A DNA stretch of 64,000 bases from assembly GCA_015059945.1 (NCBI GenBank), contig SUZJ01000003.1:124001-188000 (forward strand). The letters are read 5' to 3'. The DNA is from Rikenellaceae bacterium. GTDB taxonomy: Bacteria; Bacteroidota; Bacteroidia; Bacteroidales; Rikenellaceae. Each line of letters opens with the position of its first letter. Position 1 is the stretch's first letter. Shown here piece by piece: positions 51,196 through 59,883 of the stretch. The notes under the pieces are model-generated. The model saw only the letters and a program-made list of their open reading frames with translations. It did no database searches and was not told where the DNA came from. The position numbers were made by a program, and so were the translations under genes.

Positions 51196-52098
51196 CTACT
51201 CGCCAAAGATGGTGCTACACGACAGGTGGGCGGCTGCGGCATCGGGCAGGCACGAGAGGTGGTAGGCCTTAGTGGTGGTGAGTATATCCGATAGGGTTGC
51301 GCATATCTGGTCGAGTGTGCGTTCCTCTTTTTGGAGCGTGGGCAGTGTTGAGGGGAGCAGGGCTCCGAAAGCGCCAAACTTGGAGAGCTCCTTAATCACA
51401 TTTGCGGGGCCTTGACTCAGTCGCAGGAAGGCGGCTATGGGCTGCCACTCTTGCTTCCACACGCATCCTTTGCCGCTCCAAGGCGAGCCATAGACGCGCA
51501 CACTGCCGTCGTTCATCACGCGCACTACGGGCCCGTCGTCGTTAAGGCGCTCGGTACCCTCGATATTTTCGAGCCACAGGCGGGTGTGGGTACTCTTGCC
51601 GGTACCGCTCTCGCCCAAGCACATAACGGCTGCGCCACCCCTAACAATGACCGACGAATGTATGAGCAGGGTTTTGCAGGGCAGTGTGGCAAACGAGTAG
51701 GCAAAGACCAGTGCGTGGTCGTAGATTATACCATTTGCGCTACGGCCATCGAAGTACATATCTGTGTAGAATCTACAGGTGGGGCCAAAGCGGTAGTTCG
51801 AGCGTGCAAAGGGGCACACCACCGTAGCCTCTTTGCCTCGGCTGCGCAGGGTTAGGCGGTACTCGTCGTCATAGATGCAGAGTGTGCAGTCGCCATCCTC
51901 GAGGTCGTAGTCGAAGATTTGTGTGGGGTTGTCGCTACGGGGCACCACCTCTTGGTCGAGCACCATCTCAAAGAGTGGCTCGCTCGAGGGGTGGTCGATG
52001 CGGAAGGGTGCAAAGTTGAGCGATACGGGGGGCACACGCTCGGGCTCACGCCTTGTAAGCGCAAATATGTGGTCGGCAACGCAATAGTGGAGAGTCAT
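51196..52098 (-). CDS. HPr-kinase-like P-loop protein, probable RiPP-type peptide kinase
   Basis: The 300-residue protein resembles the C-terminal half of HPr kinase/phosphorylase. It has HSSV (147-150), Walker A GESGTGKST (162-170), NDDGP (186-190) and the GSPWSGK segment (204-210) seen in PqqD-linked kinases of lasso-peptide and related clusters. An N-terminal domain of about 130 residues is beta-rich. The start at 52098 (MTLHYCVADH) is used because the longer frame is translated 7-bp repeat. It is the last of four minus-strand genes: ABC exporter, S24/S26 peptidase, PqqD, kinase. In lasso-peptide pathways such kinases phosphorylate the C-terminal Ser; that role is inferred only. No HPr gene is nearby. 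Confidence 0.8.
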   Translation of the reverse strand: MTLHYCVADHIFALTRREPERVPPVSLNFAPFRIDHPSSEPLFEMVLDQEVVPRSDNPTQIFDYDLEDGDCTLCIYDDEYRLTLRSRGKEATVVCPFARSNYRFGPTCRFYTDMYFDGRSANGIIYDHALVFAYSFATLPCKTLLIHSSVIVRGGAAVMCLGESGTGKSTHTRLWLENIEGTERLNDDGPVVRVMNDGSVRVYGSPWSGKGCVWKQEWQPIAAFLRLSQGPANVIKELSKFGAFGALLPSTLPTLQKEERTLDQICATLSDILTTTKAYHLSCLPDAAAAHLSCSTIFGE

Positions 52099-52128
52099 CG
52101 GAATTGAGAATTGAGAATTGGGAATTAT
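52099..52128 (-). repeat. 7-bp array inside the peptide-export operon
   Basis: TTCTCAA units in minus sense (GAATTGAGAATTGAGAATT on the plus strand) fill the 45-bp gap between the pqqD-like stop and the kinase start. Confidence 0.7.
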
Positions 52129-52143
52129 TCTATTCTTCACTAC

Positions 52144-52413
52144 CTACTCTTCGACCAGGTCGGCTTTGCGGAGCGACTCAATCCAGGCGTTGGCATCGGC
52201 AAGGGCTACGGCGGGCTCGACCTCGTATTCGGCGCCGAGCAGATCAGCCACCTTCTGGGCATCGAACTCGACACCCTGAAGTTGCTCCCACAGCCACTCG
52301 CTGGTGGGGTTGAGCGAGATGATGGTGGTCATCTTCACATTCTGTACGCCCATACGCACAATTACACTCTCGCCCGCAATTTTGCGGACCTTGTAGTTTT
52401 GTTTGAGTTTCAT
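52144..52413 (-). CDS. PqqD family protein (RiPP recognition element)
   Basis: The 89-residue small winged-helix protein has the PqqD profile: KVRKIAGESVIV..., MTTIISLNPTSEWLWEQL (the I-L-N-x-S/T-x-x-x-W core) and a helix-rich C-terminus with LLGAEYEVEP and WIESLRKADLVEE. PqqD-like domains bind leader peptides of ribosomally made, modified peptides and hand them to enzymes. It lies 10 bases after the S24/S26 peptidase gene and 45 before the kinase, in one operon. No radical SAM, lasso cyclase or transglutaminase gene is visible beside it, which is unusual. A short precursor was not found in the gaps. Confidence 0.85.
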   Translation of the reverse strand: MKLKQNYKVRKIAGESVIVRMGVQNVKMTTIISLNPTSEWLWEQLQGVEFDAQKVADLLGAEYEVEPAVALADANAWIESLRKADLVEE

Positions 52414-52423
52414 ATATCTTGGT

Positions 52424-52879
52424 CTATTTTAATAATTTACGCTTTATGTCAATGGCCAGTGTGCGCACCCTCTTGCGACATAGGCTTCGGGCCGAGCGAC
52501 GTCGCCATCTGAGGCTGTCGTAACCAAACGCCCCACCCTCGGCCAACTTAACCTCGGCAACATAGGCCACCACATCGGCTGCTTGGGCCAACTCTTGTAT
52601 TCGGTAGTTGCCGTCGCCCTCAAAGGTGAGCCTCCCGCCCTCAATCTTGCGTATGCGGTGCAAAACGTGGCCACCTCGGTAGCGAAAAAGTATCACCATA
52701 CCCACACGCAACCGGGCAGGGGCTATGGGGGCCAACACCACCACATCCTTCTCATTACGCAGGAAGGGCCTCATACTGAACCCCTTGACGGTCATCTCTA
52801 CCCTCTGCCCCTCGGCAATCAGTTGCTCGACCGAGGCGAAGAACAGGTCGTTGGCTATTATCTTTTTTGTTGCTACCAT
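52424..52879 (-). CDS. S24/S26 family peptidase with Ser-His dyad
   Basis: The 151-residue protein carries the signal-peptidase-like core: the nucleophile Ser35 in KGFSMRPFL and, where LexA and bacterial signal peptidase I use Lys, a His74 in HVLHRI. This is the SipW/ER-type arrangement. No N-terminal TM helix is evident and the C-terminus is very basic (RWRRRSARSLCRKRVRTLAIDIKRK), so the protein may lie on the membrane surface or in the cytosol. In this operon it is the best candidate for leader-peptide cleavage in export. It sits 24 bases after the ABC exporter gene. Family membership is firm, substrate inferred. Confidence 0.82.
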   Translation of the reverse strand: MVATKKIIANDLFFASVEQLIAEGQRVEMTVKGFSMRPFLRNEKDVVVLAPIAPARLRVGMVILFRYRGGHVLHRIRKIEGGRLTFEGDGNYRIQELAQAADVVAYVAEVKLAEGGAFGYDSLRWRRRSARSLCRKRVRTLAIDIKRKLLK

Positions 52880-52903
52880 TGTTGTCGCTAAACTTTGCCC
52901 CCA

Positions 52904-54610
52904 CTACAACTCCACGATTCGGTCGCAGAACGAGAGGGTTTTGGGGTTGTGGGAGATGAAAAGTATGGTCAGTGTGGCGTTCTCTCTGGAGAGTTGCTCT
53001 ACGGCCTCGACAATTTCGCGCTCGGTGACCTCGTCGAGCGAGCTTGTAGCCTCATCGAGCATCAGCACCGATGCCTCGCGATAGAGTGCTCGGGCAATGC
53101 CAATGCGCTGTCGCTGACCACCCGAAAGGCGACAACCTCCCTCGCCAGTGATGGTATCAATTCCGTCGGGCAACTGGGCCACCAGTTCGCCCAACTGGGC
53201 CCTCTCTATAACCTCGACAACCCTCTGGCGGTCAATCTCTTCGGGCGCCACGCCAAAGGCCACATTCTCGGCAATAGACAGGTCGGGTATGTAGAGGTCT
53301 TGCGACACATAGGCAATGTTGTTCTGCCACTTGCGCCTTGTCTCGGCCCCTTCGATGGCAACTCCGTCTACCCTCACACTACCCTCTTGCGGTGCAAAGA
53401 GCCCTGCCACGATGTTGAACAGCGTGGTCTTGCCCTTGCCCGAAGCACCTCGGAAGCCCACCTTCTCGCCCTTGCGGATGGTGAGCGAAAGGTTTTCGAT
53501 AACATTTTCGCCCTCGGTATAGCCGAAGGTTATATTATCCAACTCGATTGAGTTGTCGAAAGGTAGTTTCTCCTGCGTGAGCGATGTGGGCTCAACGGGG
53601 TGGCTCAACTCGTCGGCGAGCACCTCTACCACATAGACGTTGCGCTTGTACTCGGTCCAAGCCGAGGCTATGCGGCTAATGGAGGGGATGATGCGGTAGG
53701 CAGCAACAGCAAATACGCCCAGGAAAACTTTGAGCGAGCCCACCGTATGGCCCGATGCAAGGCCTATAACTATTACGGCCACAACGCCCAGCACCAGCGC
53801 AAACTCAATCACATAGCTCGATGCTCCACGCATCAGCATTGCCTTGAGCGAGTAGTGGCGCAACTGGCTGATACCGCGCATAAAACGGTCGGTGATATAG
53901 GGCTTGGCACCTGCTATTTCAATATCGGCATAGCCCCTCAGAGCCTCGAACATTGTCTTGTTCTGACTCACCTGCAGGCGGTTTTCCTCGCGGCCATTCT
54001 CGGCCATACGTCGGCGTATGATGCGCGAGTAGACCAGCGCCACGGGCACAAACACCGCCACAATAAGTGCCACCACCAAGGGGTTATATATAAAGAGTGC
54101 TACCAGCAACACTACGACCACAATGGCCTCGGTCAGAATCATCATCAACGTGCTGACCACTCCGTGAGCAAAGCGGTGGCAGACGGCATTGACATTATTG
54201 ACCAGCGTAGTAGTGTGGTGCGAGCGCACAAAAAGCAGACCTCGGCTGAGGTAGTTCTGGTACATTGCCTGCGACATATCGGCAAAGAGCTCCATCATAA
54301 AGCGGCCCCTATACTGGCTCAAGGCCAGGCCCGCAACACCCTTCAAGGCTATGAGCAGCAGCACGACCAGACATACTGCACCAATAAAGGCCCCCTCGGA
54401 GCCAAAGCCCAGCGAGGTGTAGATGTGTGCCACAGTGGGGTTGTTGGCAATGAGGTTTTCGTCGAGCACGAGCAGCAGCACCGACACCAGCGCAGCGATG
54501 CCCACCAGATCGACCACCGCCGAGCACAGAGCCGACAGCAGCACTCTGGGCAAGCGACGTCGCCTTGCCTGAGGTACCAGATTAAGCCAATTATGTTTCA
54601 CTCCTGCCAT
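52904..54610 (-). CDS. ABC exporter, permease-ATPase fusion (type IV)
   Basis: The 568-residue half-transporter has six TM helices in the first 310 residues. The ATPase domain has Walker A GASGKGKTT, signature CRLSGGQRQRIGIA, Walker B VLMLDEATSSLDE and the H-loop FISHNPK. No C39 peptidase domain is present, so cleavage must come from elsewhere, possibly the S24/S26 protein encoded next. Its start at 54610 is preferred to the 7-residue longer frame, which would begin upstream of the TACCTTTG element (54618-54625). First gene of the four-gene operon. Substrate is unknown; peptide export is inferred from PqqD and kinase neighbours. Confidence 0.87.
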   Translation of the reverse strand: MAGVKHNWLNLVPQARRRRLPRVLLSALCSAVVDLVGIAALVSVLLLVLDENLIANNPTVAHIYTSLGFGSEGAFIGAVCLVVLLLIALKGVAGLALSQYRGRFMMELFADMSQAMYQNYLSRGLLFVRSHHTTTLVNNVNAVCHRFAHGVVSTLMMILTEAIVVVVLLVALFIYNPLVVALIVAVFVPVALVYSRIIRRRMAENGREENRLQVSQNKTMFEALRGYADIEIAGAKPYITDRFMRGISQLRHYSLKAMLMRGASSYVIEFALVLGVVAVIVIGLASGHTVGSLKVFLGVFAVAAYRIIPSISRIASAWTEYKRNVYVVEVLADELSHPVEPTSLTQEKLPFDNSIELDNITFGYTEGENVIENLSLTIRKGEKVGFRGASGKGKTTLFNIVAGLFAPQEGSVRVDGVAIEGAETRRKWQNNIAYVSQDLYIPDLSIAENVAFGVAPEEIDRQRVVEVIERAQLGELVAQLPDGIDTITGEGGCRLSGGQRQRIGIARALYREASVLMLDEATSSLDEVTEREIVEAVEQLSRENATLTILFISHNPKTLSFCDRIVEL

Positions 54611-54617
54611 AACAGAG

Positions 54618-54625
54618 CAAAGGTA
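54618..54625 (-). promoter_or_regulatory. Promoter -7 element of the ABC exporter operon
   Basis: TACCTTTG on the minus strand ends 7 bases before the exporter ATG. It implies a leaderless or near-leaderless mRNA. Confidence 0.6.
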
Positions 54626-54708
54626 ACACATTTAGTCGAAAGGCAGGTCAAAAGCGGTCAAGTTTTGAGCATTTTTTTGCAAAAAGTGCCCTTGTGGGCG
54701 GAAATTTG

Positions 54709-54842: not shown

Positions 54843-56936
54843 ATGAGTATTAAGAAATTTTTGATGCTTTTTGCACTTCCTCTGGCACTGGTGCTTGGCG
54901 GTTGCGAGGGTATGACCCCCGACGCTGGTGGCATCCTGCCCGAGTTTGAGTTGACCGACGCTACCGGTGCCGGTACCAACAAAGTTGAGTTCCCCGCCGA
55001 GGGTGGCGAGCTGACCTTAAACATCACCGCCAACCGCGCTTGGAGCATTGCAGTTGCAGCCGACTGGTTTGCCGTAACCCCCAGCTCGCAGCCCAATGCC
55101 GACCACAAGTCGATTACCACCCAGGTTAAGTTCAACGCATTTGCCAACACCACCGGTGAAGCCCGTCAGGCCGAGATTTCTATCTCTATCGAGGGCTTTG
55201 GCGATGCCAAACTGACCGTAAGCCAGCTGGCCGAGGGCCAGGTAGCTACCGGCAAGGTTATCTACTACGACAACTTCGACAAGGGTACTGCTGTTGACAA
55301 TAGTGGATGGCCTGCATTGGATGACTTTGTAAACCCCACTGGCGAAGCTGCCGAGGGTGTTACTTACAGCATCGCAAATGTTCAGGCTCGTTCCAACTCA
55401 CAATCGAACAATAGTCATTCGGGCTACAAAGATGAGGCATCGGGTGGTAACAATGCTTTCTTCCGCACCAGTGGTGTTTTAACCATCAACAACCTTAATC
55501 TTGCAGGTCAAGATAGCAAAGACTACACCCTTTCTTTTGGTTGCTACCGCAGCGTTTTTGGCGATACTGACAATTCTTTCAAAGCTTCGGAGTTCCATGT
55601 TTACGTCAGTGGCGATGGCGAGAAATGGACTGAATTGGCGTACACTCGACCCGCAGACGAAGTTAGCTCGTATGGTACTTGGAATTTGGCCACAGCAACT
55701 TTCACACTAAAAGAGAAGCCCTCAACTCTTAGCATATGCTTCGTATCTGACTTGGTATCCTCACACCGCTTAGATGACGTAAAACTCAACATAGGTGGTG
55801 GCGGCGCAGAGATTGACCTCTCGCAGGGCACCGCTATTGGTAGCGGCAACACTACCCCCAGCACCGGCGAGCCCACCAGCTTGAAAGAGGTTACCATTGC
55901 CGAGTTCAACGCAGCGACCGTAGACAACACCACTTGGTACAAACTCACCGGCGAGATTATCAGCATCGCCAAAGAGGACTATGGCAACTTCACCATCAAA
56001 GATTCGACCGGCGAGGTTTACATCTATGGTATGACCAACGGTTGGGTAGGTAGCAACGACAAGTCGTTCTCGCAGATTGGTTTGAAGGTTGGCGACACCG
56101 TAACTCTGGGTACCCTGCGTGGCGAGTTTAACGGCACTATCCAGGGTGGTGGCAACAAAGTTCCTGCCTACTACATCAGCCACACCGCAGGCAGCGGTGG
56201 CAACGACACCCCCGTAACTCCTGGCGAGGTACAGGAAATCAGTGTTATCGACTTCTTGGCCAAGAGCCCCGCAAGCAATGTTTGGTACAAGCTGACCGGT
56301 AAGATTTCCAACATCGCCAGCACCGCCTATGGTAACTTTGACCTGGTAGACGAGACCGGCACCGTATATGTTTACGGTCTGACCAAAACTCAGGTAGAGA
56401 AGAACGACCAGTCGTTCAGCTCGTTGGGCCTGAAAGAGGGCGACATCGTAACCTTGATTGGTGTTCGCGCAGTATGCAACGACTCGCCTCAGGTGGGTAG
56501 CGCTTACTACGTTTCGCACGTCGAGGGCGAGGCTCCCGAGGTTGATGAGAATGTTGTCAAAATCTCGTTTGCCGATGTAGCCAACCGCACCAGCCTGAGC
56601 GAAACCCAGCAGGTATGGCAGCAGAACGGCATCACCGTAACCAACGACAAGGGCGCTTCGACTACCGACGTGGCCGACTACTCGGGTCCTGCAAGGTTCT
56701 ACAAGAACTCGAACCTGACCATCGAGGCAGAGAAAGAGATGACTCAGATTGTGGTTAATACCACTGGTGGTAACAAGTACTTCCTCAACCTGTCGGATGG
56801 CAATGGCTACACCGTTAGCGGCTCGGGCACCTCAAAGGCCACCATTACCCTTGACACTCCCACCAAATCGTTCACCATCACTGGTCTTGCAAACCAAGTT
56901 CGTTGCACCACCATTGAGGTAACTTTGGCCGAGTAA
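54843..56936 (+). CDS. Lipoprotein with BACON domain and two OB-fold domains
   Basis: The 697-residue lipoprotein (LVLGGC, lipidated Cys21) has a BACON domain (about 45-130, NKVEFPAEGGELTLNITAN) and a jelly-roll-like domain (about 135-315). Two OB-fold, DUF5689-like domains follow (about 345-450 and 460-565), sharing the pattern WYKLTG-I-N-F-L-D-G-VY-YG-LKxGDxVTL. A C-terminal beta domain ends it. The OB folds resemble nucleic-acid-binding modules of exported nucleases, and the next genes encode such nucleases. The region coding the jelly-roll (55.28-55.80 kb) is more AT-rich than the rest and looks foreign. It has its own promoter and terminator. Nucleic-acid binding is inferred. Confidence 0.85.
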   Translation: MSIKKFLMLFALPLALVLGGCEGMTPDAGGILPEFELTDATGAGTNKVEFPAEGGELTLNITANRAWSIAVAADWFAVTPSSQPNADHKSITTQVKFNAFANTTGEARQAEISISIEGFGDAKLTVSQLAEGQVATGKVIYYDNFDKGTAVDNSGWPALDDFVNPTGEAAEGVTYSIANVQARSNSQSNNSHSGYKDEASGGNNAFFRTSGVLTINNLNLAGQDSKDYTLSFGCYRSVFGDTDNSFKASEFHVYVSGDGEKWTELAYTRPADEVSSYGTWNLATATFTLKEKPSTLSICFVSDLVSSHRLDDVKLNIGGGGAEIDLSQGTAIGSGNTTPSTGEPTSLKEVTIAEFNAATVDNTTWYKLTGEIISIAKEDYGNFTIKDSTGEVYIYGMTNGWVGSNDKSFSQIGLKVGDTVTLGTLRGEFNGTIQGGGNKVPAYYISHTAGSGGNDTPVTPGEVQEISVIDFLAKSPASNVWYKLTGKISNIASTAYGNFDLVDETGTVYVYGLTKTQVEKNDQSFSSLGLKEGDIVTLIGVRAVCNDSPQVGSAYYVSHVEGEAPEVDENVVKISFADVANRTSLSETQQVWQQNGITVTNDKGASTTDVADYSGPARFYKNSNLTIEAEKEMTQIVVNTTGGNKYFLNLSDGNGYTVSGSGTSKATITLDTPTKSFTITGLANQVRCTTIEVTLAE

Positions 56937-56964
56937 TTTTGCTCTAAAAAGCAACAATCCGTAT

Positions 56965-57003
56965 AGATAGGGCACCCATTTTGGGTGCCCTATCTCTTTT
57001 TTT
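56965..57003 (+). terminator. Terminator after BACON/OB lipoprotein gene
   Basis: AGATAGGGCACCCA (56965-56978) pairs with TGGGTGCCCTATCT (56982-56995) and is followed by a T run. Confidence 0.85.
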
Positions 57004-57037
57004 GCTCGCGCGCGTGCGATTTTCTAAGAAAAAGATG

Positions 57038-57045
57038 TAAATTTG
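57038..57045 (+). promoter_or_regulatory. Promoter -7 element of the nuclease operon
   Basis: TAAATTTG matches TAnnTTTG and lies 45 bases before the first possible start. No ideal -33 element is seen. Confidence 0.45.
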
Positions 57046-57089
57046 AGCCCTAATAGGCCCCTACGAATAGGCCGACAAACGCAGAGCAG

Positions 57090-58265
57090 ATGAGTATGAC
57101 TTACAAAGCAATGAAATATCTGGCCACCATAGCAGTAATGCTTGTGGCTGTGAGTTGCCAGTTCCAGGGGTTTGAGAACCCCAACCACACCCCCAGTAGC
57201 GCAACCTTCTCGGTAGGTGCCACTGTGAGCGGCAACACTGCCCAGCAGTTCCTCTCGCTCACCACCGAGGGCGACTGGTCGCTCACAATCGACTACCCCA
57301 CCGAGGGCGAGAATTGGTGCACCCTCAGCCCCACAAGCGGCACGGGCAATACCAATGTGATGATGAGCTTTGGCAAAAACGAGGGCGATGGCGAGCGCTC
57401 GGCTGTCATTACGGTCAAGTTCGACGACACCACCCTGCACCTCGACTTTGTGCAGAGGTCTACCTTCAGCCTTGCCAACAACACCCAACTGAAAGGTTGG
57501 GCCGAGCTGCCCGAGTTTGCCGACGACCGCCAGCGCTACTACTTCACCAAGCATATGCTGCCCTCATCGGGCAACACCCAGCGTAGTTTCTCGGCCCTCT
57601 ATGATGCGCAGTACAAGATACCCATCTGGGTAGCCTACCCCCTCTGCAAGTCTTATATGGAGGGTAATACCCGTACCAACCAGTGGGGCCCCAAAGATCC
57701 CAACATCCCTGCCGACAAGCAGCCCGATATGGGGTTGTCGTACCAGGGCAACTACGACCGAGGCCATATGTTGCCCTCTGCCTCGCGCGACAACAACGGG
57801 GCCGACAACAACCAGACCTACTACCCCTCGAACATAACCCCCCAGTTGGACCGCCTAAATCAGGCCAAGTGGGCAAACGCAGAGAATTTGGTACGCAGTT
57901 GGGCCGAGGGGTGCGACACGCTGTATGTGGTTACGGGCGCCGTGTTGCAGACCGCAGGTGGCAACGAGAGCATCAGCTACACCTACGCCAAGCGCAGCCC
58001 ACAGATGAAGGTGGCCATTCCAAACTACTACTACAAGGCGCTGTTGCAGTACAACGAGATTGACGGCCAGAAGGTCTACCAAGCCATAGGTATATGGATG
58101 GAGCACAAGGCTGCCAGCGGAGCCGTCACCACAGCCGACCTGATTACAATCGACAAGTTGGAGGAGAAACTCGGCTATGACCTGTTTGCCAACATCGACC
58201 CCACCATACAGAGCCAAATCGAGGCCAAGTACAACCTCATCTACTGGAACGGCATAGAGAACTAA
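57090..58265 (+). CDS. BACON domain lipoprotein with DNA/RNA non-specific endonuclease domain
   Basis: The 391-residue protein (or 384 from the ATG at 57111, which gives a tidier signal MKYLATIAVMLVAVSC) has its lipidated Cys at 23. A BACON-type domain spans about 36-122. The NUC endonuclease domain spans about 135-390, with the DRGH motif at 223-226 (NYDRGHMLPSASR) and the metal-binding Asn248 in SNITPQ. NUC enzymes cut DNA and RNA without sequence preference. A lipid anchor suggests surface or periplasmic digestion. It begins a tight run of four more genes (gaps of 31, 50, 58 and 30 bases), so an operon is likely. Confidence 0.9.
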   Translation: MSMTYKAMKYLATIAVMLVAVSCQFQGFENPNHTPSSATFSVGATVSGNTAQQFLSLTTEGDWSLTIDYPTEGENWCTLSPTSGTGNTNVMMSFGKNEGDGERSAVITVKFDDTTLHLDFVQRSTFSLANNTQLKGWAELPEFADDRQRYYFTKHMLPSSGNTQRSFSALYDAQYKIPIWVAYPLCKSYMEGNTRTNQWGPKDPNIPADKQPDMGLSYQGNYDRGHMLPSASRDNNGADNNQTYYPSNITPQLDRLNQAKWANAENLVRSWAEGCDTLYVVTGAVLQTAGGNESISYTYAKRSPQMKVAIPNYYYKALLQYNEIDGQKVYQAIGIWMEHKAASGAVTTADLITIDKLEEKLGYDLFANIDPTIQSQIEAKYNLIYWNGIEN

Positions 58266-58296
58266 ACCACACGCACCAACACAGACCAAAACATAA

Positions 58297-59883
58297 ATGA
58301 TGAAGTTTATGAAGAACATAATCGTTAGGGTTGCAGCCATTGTAGCATTGGTTGCAGCAACAGTGGCGGGTTGCACCCCACTTCCCACCCCCGAGGGCGA
58401 GGACCAGTTGACGGTAGATATTACCACTCTCACCCTCGACCAAAAAGAGGGTATAGCCTCGTTCAACCTAATAGCCAACGTAGCCTGGACAATCAGCTGT
58501 TCGGCCGATTGGCTCACCATTCTGCCCACCAGCGGCAGTGGCTCGAGCAAGGTGTTGTGTGGCTACCAGGAGAACACCTCGGCCAATGGTCGCAACACCA
58601 AGATTGAGATTGCACCCGTCGAGGCGGGTTTAGTCCCTTCGCACACCATATTGGTACTCCAAGACGGCACCAGTGGCGGCAGCGACACTCCCGACACTCC
58701 AGATACTCCAGATACTCCAGATACACCAGACACACCTGATGTTCCGGATGCTCCCGAGGGCGTGATTGAGGCTACCGTTGCCGAGTTCTTAAATGCCGAG
58801 GTAAACACCACCCAGTGGTATCAGCTCACAGGTACAATCACCAATCTGACCAACACCACCTATGGCAACTTCGATCTGCAAGACGAGAGTGGTTGGGTAC
58901 TTATCTACGGACTTTGCGCCAACAAGGTCGACAAGAACGACAAGTCGTTCAGCTCGCTGGGACTCAAAGAGGGCGACATCGTTACGCTCCACACCCTGCG
59001 TAGCGAGCACAATGGCCAGCCCCAGGGTGGCGGCAGTGCCAATGCTCCTGCCTACTACATCTGCCACACCCCTGGCGAGAGTGGCGGCAATGAAGGAGGT
59101 GGCAATCAGGACAACCCCAATGGTAGCGCCTACACCTACCGCACCGGTTGGGCCGAGCTGCCCGATGAGGACCCCAACAACAGCGACTACTACTACGCCC
59201 ACCACATAATTCCCGACGTAAGTGGCCAGGTGCGCAACTTCTCGGTATGCTACTCCGAGAGCCTGGGTTGCCCCGTATGGGTGGCCTCGCCTATGCACAG
59301 CTACTACACCCAGAAGAACACCAGCCGTAGCGATGCCTACGCACCCGATCCCGATATTCCATCCAGCATTCAGGTACACAAACGCGAAGGCTACACTCGT
59401 GGCCATATGCTCGGCAGTGCCGACCGTCTGGTGAGCGTGGGTGCCAACCACCAGGCCTTCTACTACTCTAACATCGCCCCACAGCTTTCGAGCGGCTTCA
59501 ATACGGGCGGTGGCGTGTGGAACAACCTGGAGAGTTTCTGCGACCAGCAACTCTGCGCCGACACCCTCTATATGGTCAATGGCTGCTACTGGGCCAACCA
59601 CAACAAGGTATCGAGTGGCACCGTCATACCAACCCACTACTACAAGGTGTTGCTCCGCACCAAGAAGGGCAACAGCAAAAAATGGGTAGTGAACTGCTCG
59701 GCCGACGAGCTCAAGTGCGTGGTATTTATGGTCGAGCACAACTCGAGCCAGCACGGACAGAAACCCACAAGAGATATGATGATGAGCGTAGCCGAGTTGG
59801 AGGAGCTCACGGGCCACAAGTTTTTTACCAACGTGCCCAACGCCCCCAAAGATACCTTCAACCCAAGCGACTGGGGATTGTAG
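58297..59883 (+). CDS. BACON/OB-fold/endonuclease fusion lipoprotein
   Basis: The 528-residue lipoprotein has its lipidated Cys at 26 (TVAGC), a BACON domain (about 35-125) and a low-complexity linker of DTP tripeptides (130-152). An OB-fold, DUF5689-like domain (about 155-265) resembles those of the 54843 gene (WYQLTGTITNLTN...YGNFDLQDESG, KNDKSFSSLGLKEGDIVTL). A NUC endonuclease domain (about 280-525) completes it. The active site reads TRGH (367-370, GYTRGHMLGSADR), with Thr where DRGH is usual, while the catalytic His and Asn392 (YYSNIAPQ) remain. The binding module fused to a nuclease supports nucleic acid as the OB ligand. Confidence 0.88.
   Translation: MMKFMKNIIVRVAAIVALVAATVAGCTPLPTPEGEDQLTVDITTLTLDQKEGIASFNLIANVAWTISCSADWLTILPTSGSGSSKVLCGYQENTSANGRNTKIEIAPVEAGLVPSHTILVLQDGTSGGSDTPDTPDTPDTPDTPDTPDVPDAPEGVIEATVAEFLNAEVNTTQWYQLTGTITNLTNTTYGNFDLQDESGWVLIYGLCANKVDKNDKSFSSLGLKEGDIVTLHTLRSEHNGQPQGGGSANAPAYYICHTPGESGGNEGGGNQDNPNGSAYTYRTGWAELPDEDPNNSDYYYAHHIIPDVSGQVRNFSVCYSESLGCPVWVASPMHSYYTQKNTSRSDAYAPDPDIPSSIQVHKREGYTRGHMLGSADRLVSVGANHQAFYYSNIAPQLSSGFNTGGGVWNNLESFCDQQLCADTLYMVNGCYWANHNKVSSGTVIPTHYYKVLLRTKKGNSKKWVVNCSADELKCVVFMVEHNSSQHGQKPTRDMMMSVAELEELTGHKFFTNVPNAPKDTFNPSDWGL

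Follow-up and report, generated by a model that had tools for sequence, protein, structure and literature searches.

A four-gene operon on the minus strand of the 64,000-nucleotide stretch analyzed here (the window; contig SUZJ01000003.1 of a Rikenellaceae bacterium) is very likely the central machine of a pathway for ribosomally synthesized and post-translationally modified peptides (RiPPs) of the linear polyphosphorylated peptide (LPP) type, serving precursors that are scattered over the genome of this member of the Bacteroidota. The LPP family was described in May 2026 and includes the lpp cluster of Paenibacillus alginolyticus (PMC13381572). Judged by their sequences, the four genes look like a Bacteroidota counterpart of that family. 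They are:

52904-54610, minus strand: MsbA-type ABC exporter (permease and ATPase), 568 amino acids, the operon's first gene, with ABC_membrane and ABC_tran domains
52424-52879, minus strand: archaeal/SipW-type signal peptidase-like protein (S24/S26), 151 amino acids, with Ser35 and His74; the proposed leader peptidase
52144-52413, minus strand: PqqD-like RiPP recognition element (RRE), 89 amino acids, matching PF05402
51196-52098, minus strand: HprK-like kinase, 300 amino acids, with His147, Lys168, Asp187 and Asp188; proposed to act on peptides

The sequence-only reading that singled out this operon described four minus-strand genes with gaps of 24, 10 and 45 bp, and these coordinates proved exact. 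Alternative in-frame starts are possible for the ABC exporter at 54631 and, as GTG, for the kinase at 52140. The exporter matches ABC_membrane (E 3.3e-11) and ABC_tran (E 5.3e-31) in Pfam, and its best NCBIfam match is MsbA (TIGR02203, E 2.9e-81, under the model's cut-off); as that reading had it, no C39 peptidase domain is among the Pfam families listed for it at E ≤ 1. The PqqD-like protein scores over the cut-off of PF05402 (E 2.2e-13) and is a discrete RRE. For the peptidase, the archaeal-type signal peptidase I model TIGR02228 gives E 1.3e-7, under its cut-off, and the S24 family PF00717 an E of only 0.15. The kinase is identified as HprK-like by its sequence motif, together with a weak family match (HprK_rel_A, TIGR04352, E 4.4e-4) in which the likeness is confined to a 40-residue stretch around the P-loop and scores 19.4 bits where the model's cut-off is 200. 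Comparison of a kinase profile with PDB sequences returned only P-loop stretches of transporters, PEP carboxykinases and other ATPases and was uninformative.

The residues expected to carry out catalysis are kept. All rows of a 31-sequence kinase alignment have His147, Lys168, Asp187 and Asp188, and a His-Lys-Asp-Asp motif is reported to be essential in lasso-peptide kinases (PMC9266682). In a 30-sequence alignment of the peptidase, His74 is found in every row and Ser35 in at least 90%, and the 39-residue spacing between the two equals that of S29 and H68 in LppS, the peptidase of the LPP system (PMC13381572). The calls of a Ser-His S24/S26 peptidase, a PqqD-like protein and an HPr-kinase-like protein stand. 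The description of the operon as lacking a core modifying enzyme does not, since in LPPs the HprK-like kinase is itself the primary modifying enzyme (PMC13381572).

The LPP set consists of an archaeal-type signal peptidase, a free PqqD/RRE, an HprK-like kinase, a nucleotidyltransferase and an MsbA-like exporter, and its parts were shown to bind, phosphorylate and cleave the precursor, with RRE-dependent cleavage by the SipW-like peptidase and a kinase-dependent phosphate on core Ser3 (PMC13381572). The genes described here share with LPPs the peptidase, RRE, kinase and exporter, a precursor whose YxxP leader is directly followed by a conserved Ser (here Ser or Thr), and an association with polysaccharide loci. 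A nucleotidyltransferase of the kind found in the LPP set is encoded in the same genome but mostly unlinked to the cassette. Further differences are the phylum, as LPPs are stated to be "restricted to the Bacillota" (PMC13381572), the occurrence of Thr at the acceptor site and the placement of precursors, which are scattered here and for the most part precede a lipoprotein gene but number one to three inside the LPP cluster (PMC13381572). The biological role of LPPs is called unknown in that paper, and a word search of its main text, as accessible, found no occurrence of "bacteroid" or "lipoprotein". The literature searched, for most papers as listings and extending to neither subscription papers nor preprints, describes no Bacteroidota version of the cassette or the peptide.

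The four-gene set is conserved far beyond chance. We searched 100 genomes, many of them incomplete metagenome-assembled genomes, with 23 of the 100 (both counts including the window's own genome of 1.81 Mb in 13 contigs) belonging to its genus; going by the closest named relatives among the kinase matches listed, we take this to be Tidjanibacter, a genus of the Rikenellaceae. Kinase homologues occur in 35 genomes, 30 of them strong (E ≤ 1.2e-32) and five weak, and in 21 of the 23 genus genomes. PqqD likewise has exactly one match in each of 21 genus genomes and none in the other two, the sole PqqD of the own genome being that of the operon. The order ABC-S24-PqqD-kinase is kept in 16 of 18 congener loci, three of which have an extra ORF before the kinase; the remaining two (L047 and L048) have only PqqD and the kinase together, and in other genera the order is shuffled. 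A scan of named genomes added at least 561 stretches, out of 593, that encode confirmed kinase relatives. We kept the best 80 of these, whose titles, where they name a group, all name Bacteroidota groups; 52 of the 80 are flanked by more than 4 kb on both sides, and within 6 kb of the kinase these 52 loci have S24 (49), PqqD (32), ABC (31) and nucleotidyltransferase (4) genes. PqqD was not nearby in 20 of the 52; 17 of these 20 genomes were searched, and all 17 contain it.

Three congener loci (L042, L045 and L046) carry a membrane protein of ~246 amino acids inserted between PqqD and the kinase, the L045 copy being without a Pfam match. In Alistipes-type loci (L235, L236, L239, L242, L243, L244, L247, L248, L252 and others), an unlinked PqqD gene is followed by a Cys/His-rich protein of ~145 amino acids and a TonB-dependent receptor, and in several by a heavy-metal-binding-like protein after the receptor (labels assigned by eye).

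Exporters with a C39 domain (PCATs) couple leader removal to ABC export, and the C39 domain sits at the N terminus of known peptide exporters. Fused peptidase-exporter proteins occur among the relatives of the operon as well: in oriented copies of the loci, the ABC exporters encoded at L061:1018-3435 and L063:1716-3956 begin with an S24 domain, and the S24 model matches there within 807- and 748-codon frames. In both loci the kinase is upstream and a nucleotidyltransferase-like gene, labeled by eye, is downstream on the opposite strand, and the genome of L061 (G097) also has one peptide of the candidate precursor family described below. These fusions link peptidase and exporter functionally and, by sequence, are an apparent serine counterpart of the C39 exporters, with a serine signal-peptidase-like domain in place of the cysteine C39 domain. 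They differ in turn from the window's exporter, which has no recognized peptidase domain.

Where are the precursors? A search of the neighborhoods of the PqqD/kinase/peptidase set for small ORFs, which the sequence-only reading had proposed, found the set conserved and yielded one peptide family. We clustered 1,747 small ORFs from the surroundings of cassette, PqqD and nucleotidyltransferase genes; a first filter gave no cluster and a loosened filter a peptide family in seven loci, and PqqD ends, used as a positive control, clustered as expected. A motif scan added three further loci, and in the alignment of these ten peptides Y, P, E, E, G, F and S are invariant. The candidate precursors are ~35-60 amino acids long, with a YxxP leader of consensus YxxPx[IV]EVxEVxVExG[IF]A, which includes a Gly-[Ile/Phe]-Ala; after it come a conserved Ser/Thr and a tail that is acidic and variable. 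Seven of the peptides, compared with the family databases, match nothing in Pfam and, in NCBIfam, only a cyanobacterial lasso-peptide model (E 0.11, nine residues of one peptide). That the frames are coding is indicated by thirteen gapless peptide pairs, for which pooled pS (0.458) exceeds pN (0.130). With the full peptide model, 22 of the 23 genus genomes have a match at E ≤ 1, and 32 of all 100 genomes have one at E ≤ 0.01, with up to about ten candidates per genome. The own genome has six:

C2:23007-23108, candidate precursor, peptide model match
C2:7192-7269, candidate precursor, peptide model match
C3:5288-5362, candidate precursor, peptide model match
C3:100356-100475, candidate precursor, peptide model match
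C7:346013-346096, candidate precursor, peptide model match
C12:16057-16134, candidate precursor, peptide model match

The nearest lies ~24 kb before the start of the window. Scans of the window with the motif, the full model and the leader-only model introduced below found no precursor there (nothing at E ≤ 1 among its short ORFs with the last), in agreement with the sequence-only reading; its guess that a precursor is encoded elsewhere is supported by these six sites and by the way the peptide family tracks the cassette across genomes, the role of the peptides being predicted from sequence. In some relatives (L054, L092 and L084) a candidate precursor is linked to the cassette, and in L054 and L092 the peptide gene lies directly upstream of the cassette's kinase gene. 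In Bacteroides oleiciplenus (L084 and L258) there are two tandem copies of a series of peptide, secreted lipoprotein-like, Wzz-like, ABC and kinase genes, with a nucleotidyltransferase after the second copy, so that peptide, cassette and polysaccharide-type gene are found in one place. A weak relative of the peptide (E 0.3) at L081:4496-4807, minus strand, contains YLPPVVEVIEVENEGVMALS and suggests a looser Bacteroides class beyond the G[IF]A type.

Other candidates were set aside. Two small-ORF clusters, of five and four loci, looked to us like frames over tRNA-type sequence, and many of the others, with two or three loci, were one locus present twice or fragments of other genes. As possible substrates, the ~246-amino-acid membrane protein, a DUF3332 protein (L055) and the Cys/His-rich protein of the Alistipes-type loci were not seen to recur with the cassette outside their own groups. 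In 12 loci a secreted protein of ~150 amino acids is encoded by the first or second gene upstream of the kinase, in some of them next to an rpoD-like gene; this appears to reflect synteny alone.

The position that the kinase would modify stands out in the peptides. Of the first 56, 54 have a Pro-to-Gly spacing of 11, 49 carry Ala at Gly+2, and all 56 carry Ser or Thr at Gly+4. Because the first model had seen the Ser at Gly+4, we built a leader-only model that ends at Gly+2 and is blind to that position. It recovered the identical 32 genomes at E ≤ 0.01, the best match in any other genome having E 0.144. In 60 leader-only matches from loci new to the set (E ≤ 0.014, weaker ones excluded), the residue at Gly+4 is Ser 49 times, Thr 11 times and never anything different; elsewhere in the tails Ser/Thr make up 11.6%. 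Of all 119 distinct peptide sequences, 117 can be aligned at the Gly, and each of these carries Ser (97) or Thr (20) at Gly+4; the remaining two fail to align there. The tails of the first 56 peptides contain 240 Asp and Glu vs 16 Lys and Arg and no Cys, and 41 of them have Trp, Phe or Tyr among the last three residues.

The candidate precursors also track the cassette machinery. Strong kinase and strong S24 matches (E < 1e-30) occur in exactly the same 30 of the 100 genomes, all of which contain PqqD, and peptides are found in 29 of these 30, in one of five weak-kinase genomes (G097) and in two of 65 genomes with no kinase match. Outside the genus, peptides occur in 8 of 9 strong-kinase genomes vs 2 of 68 others (p = 1.9e-8), and in the same family outside the genus in 6 of 7 vs 1 of 30 (p = 2e-5), with p-values that ignore shared ancestry and with some seed peptides drawn from kinase-positive genomes among the 100. 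None of the 19 genomes outside the genus that have PqqD but no kinase match has a peptide. Contrasts within other genera are concordant for G037 (kinase and peptide) vs G055 (neither), G058 vs G043 and G024 vs G044, and discordant for G035 (both) vs G054 (kinase only) and G032 (both) vs G051 (peptide only).

How might the pathway operate? Several scattered small genes would supply precursors with the consensus leader, whose YxxP motif would be bound by the free PqqD/RRE. The HprK-like kinase would then phosphorylate the conserved Ser/Thr four residues past the Gly, the Ser-His signal-peptidase-like protein would cut off the leader beside G-[IF]-A, and the MsbA-type ABC protein would export the acidic core of ~18 residues. 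The sequence-only reading had likewise envisioned a compact pathway in which PqqD, kinase, peptidase and exporter act on a precursor encoded at a distance, and it gains support from the activities of the LPP parts (PMC13381572) and from the matching peptides that track the cassette; by analogy, the proteins described here may have the same activities.

Several points weigh against this assignment. Past its YxxP, the leader departs from the motif of LPPs, YxxPxVLxHQxIxFETxxS, and the in-cluster precursor that is a criterion of the LPP family is missing from the own genome, where the precursors are unlinked to the cassette (PMC13381572). Thr occupies the acceptor position in 20 of 117 peptides, whereas the S3T variant of an LPP is unphosphorylated (PMC13381572). 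Either of two bonds may be cleaved: a cut after the Ala of G-[IF]-A would make the acceptor core residue 2, and a cut before it residue 3, as in LPPs. Only 4 of the 52 well-flanked loci, from the best 80 of at least 561, have a nucleotidyltransferase near the kinase. Besides resting on p-values that ignore shared ancestry, the co-occurrence has exceptions: G054 (strong kinase, 84% complete) has no peptide match at E ≤ 0.01, and G009 and G051 (59% and 54% complete) have peptides, with no kinase, PqqD or S24 found there. Finally, phosphorylation, cleavage, export and all other biochemical steps are predicted from sequence.

Most of the peptide genes are paired with a lipoprotein gene. Of the 60 leader-only loci, 59 have at least 400 nt downstream, and in 58 of these a co-directional ORF of at least 80 codons starts -20 to +150 nt away, with a lipobox-like Cys near the N terminus in 57. 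With a different lipobox pattern, the first 56 loci gave a downstream ORF of at least 100 codons in 53 and a lipobox in 44. In the own genome a lipoprotein gene follows five of the six peptides, L306 being the exception; elsewhere, L054 and L092 are among the exceptions, the cassette kinase being the next gene in both. The downstream proteins are diverse. Ten that were compared with Pfam (E ≤ 0.01) gave one BspA-type leucine-rich repeat (LRR), one TIG domain under its cut-off and one marginal phage domain, and NCBIfam gave under-cut-off matches only, among which four were of an N-terminal lipoprotein type and two of an LRR type. Inside a given genome, the more alike two cores are, the more alike their lipoproteins tend to be (88 peptide-lipoprotein pairs, 174 comparisons, r = 0.66, a value reached in 0 of 2000 permutations), a correlation driven by few duplications that shows joint inheritance, not binding.

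Could the small ORFs be mere regulatory leader ORFs of the lipoprotein genes, unrelated to the cassette? The median spacing to the next gene, 25 nt in the first 56 loci and 22 nt in the 60 leader-only loci, would fit, as would the joint duplication of paralogous peptides and lipoproteins. However, from genome to genome the peptides go along with the kinase and S24 genes, neither a conserved Ser/Thr nor an RRE-type motif would be expected in a regulatory ORF, and the peptides of L054 and L092 sit before the kinase gene itself. We regard this explanation as very unlikely and favor an LPP-type pathway with lipoprotein-paired precursors.

The fifth member of the LPP set is encoded apart. The own genome has a PF14907 nucleotidyltransferase at C8:179461-180189, on a contig other than that of the cassette, and the family is found in 18 of the 23 genus genomes at E ≤ 0.001, over the cut-off in 16. 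An RmlA-like gene is the next ORF in 11 of 17 genus loci, and in other genomes 18 of 20 loci have at least one polysaccharide-type gene within six ORFs, with neighbors labeled by our own sequence reading and by BLAST between loci, not by family search. PsmN, a protein of a lasso cluster annotated as a nucleotidyltransferase, has been linked to a hexose on phospho-Ser (PMC9266682). By analogy with PsmN, of pseudomycoidin, the unlinked PF14907 protein may add a sugar to the phosphate.

The polysaccharide genes around the nucleotidyltransferase in most loci examined, together with the MsbA-like exporter, could also mean that the substrate of the cassette is not these peptides but, for example, an intermediate of surface-polysaccharide synthesis or an HPr-like protein, and that the co-occurrence with peptides is indirect. 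PqqD is a peptide-binding family, however, and the Bacillota counterpart set acts on a YxxP peptide (PMC13381572); we regard a substrate other than these peptides as very unlikely.

Phosphorylated lasso peptides such as paeninodin and pseudomycoidin share several parts with the set: a PqqD-like B1 protein, an HprK-like kinase with an essential His-Lys-Asp-Asp, a nucleotidyltransferase linked to a hexose on phospho-Ser (PMC9266682) and, as in our candidate precursors, a YxxP leader. A lasso pathway with its cyclase and transglutaminase-like protease elsewhere in the genome is nonetheless most improbable. The lasso B2 protease (PF13471), a transglutaminase-like protease that the sequence-only reading had noted as absent, had no match at E ≤ 0.001 in any genome of the genus (0 of 23), and no lasso enzyme was recognized beside the cassette among recurrent neighbors in the examined loci, with no genome-wide search for the cyclase (Asn_synthase, PF00733) having been made. 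The peptidase here is of the signal-peptidase type and the acceptor lies just after the leader, whereas in these phosphorylated lasso peptides it is at the C terminus.

Features next to the operon are the following:

54618-54652, minus strand: promoter-like site of Bacteroidota type, TTTG-23-TAnnTTTG, from a motif scan, ending 7 nt before the ABC start codon
51048-51087: hairpin flanked by T/A-rich sequence, in the space between the kinase gene and the acyl-CoA synthetase gene convergent with it, seen by eye and not listed by the scan

The motif, which we take to be the Bacteroidota promoter consensus, has 8 matches within the window vs 0.70 expected. The hairpin is possibly a shared terminator of the kinase and acyl-CoA synthetase genes. 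Divergent from the operon, three consecutive secreted lipoprotein-like genes (54843-59883, plus strand) have common repeated modules, and two of them are nuclease-like by eye.

Compared with LPPs, an LPP-type pathway as proposed here would bring three new elements: another phylum, one machine for dispersed precursors, and the pairing of peptide with lipoprotein. If correct, a RiPP family reported as confined to the Bacillota would extend to many Bacteroidales, as at least 561 of 593 stretches have kinase relatives, and a so far unannotated family of candidate precursors has a predicted modified residue that is directly testable. More tentatively, and with the odds somewhat against it, one cytoplasmic machine may supply gut Bacteroidota with a range of secreted peptides that are phosphorylated and perhaps also carry sugar, each the dedicated partner of the surface lipoprotein encoded immediately downstream, in a display, signaling or recognition system tied to surface polysaccharide. 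The layout itself, a single machine with several dispersed, lipoprotein-paired precursors, would provide a handle on the purpose of phosphorylated RiPPs.

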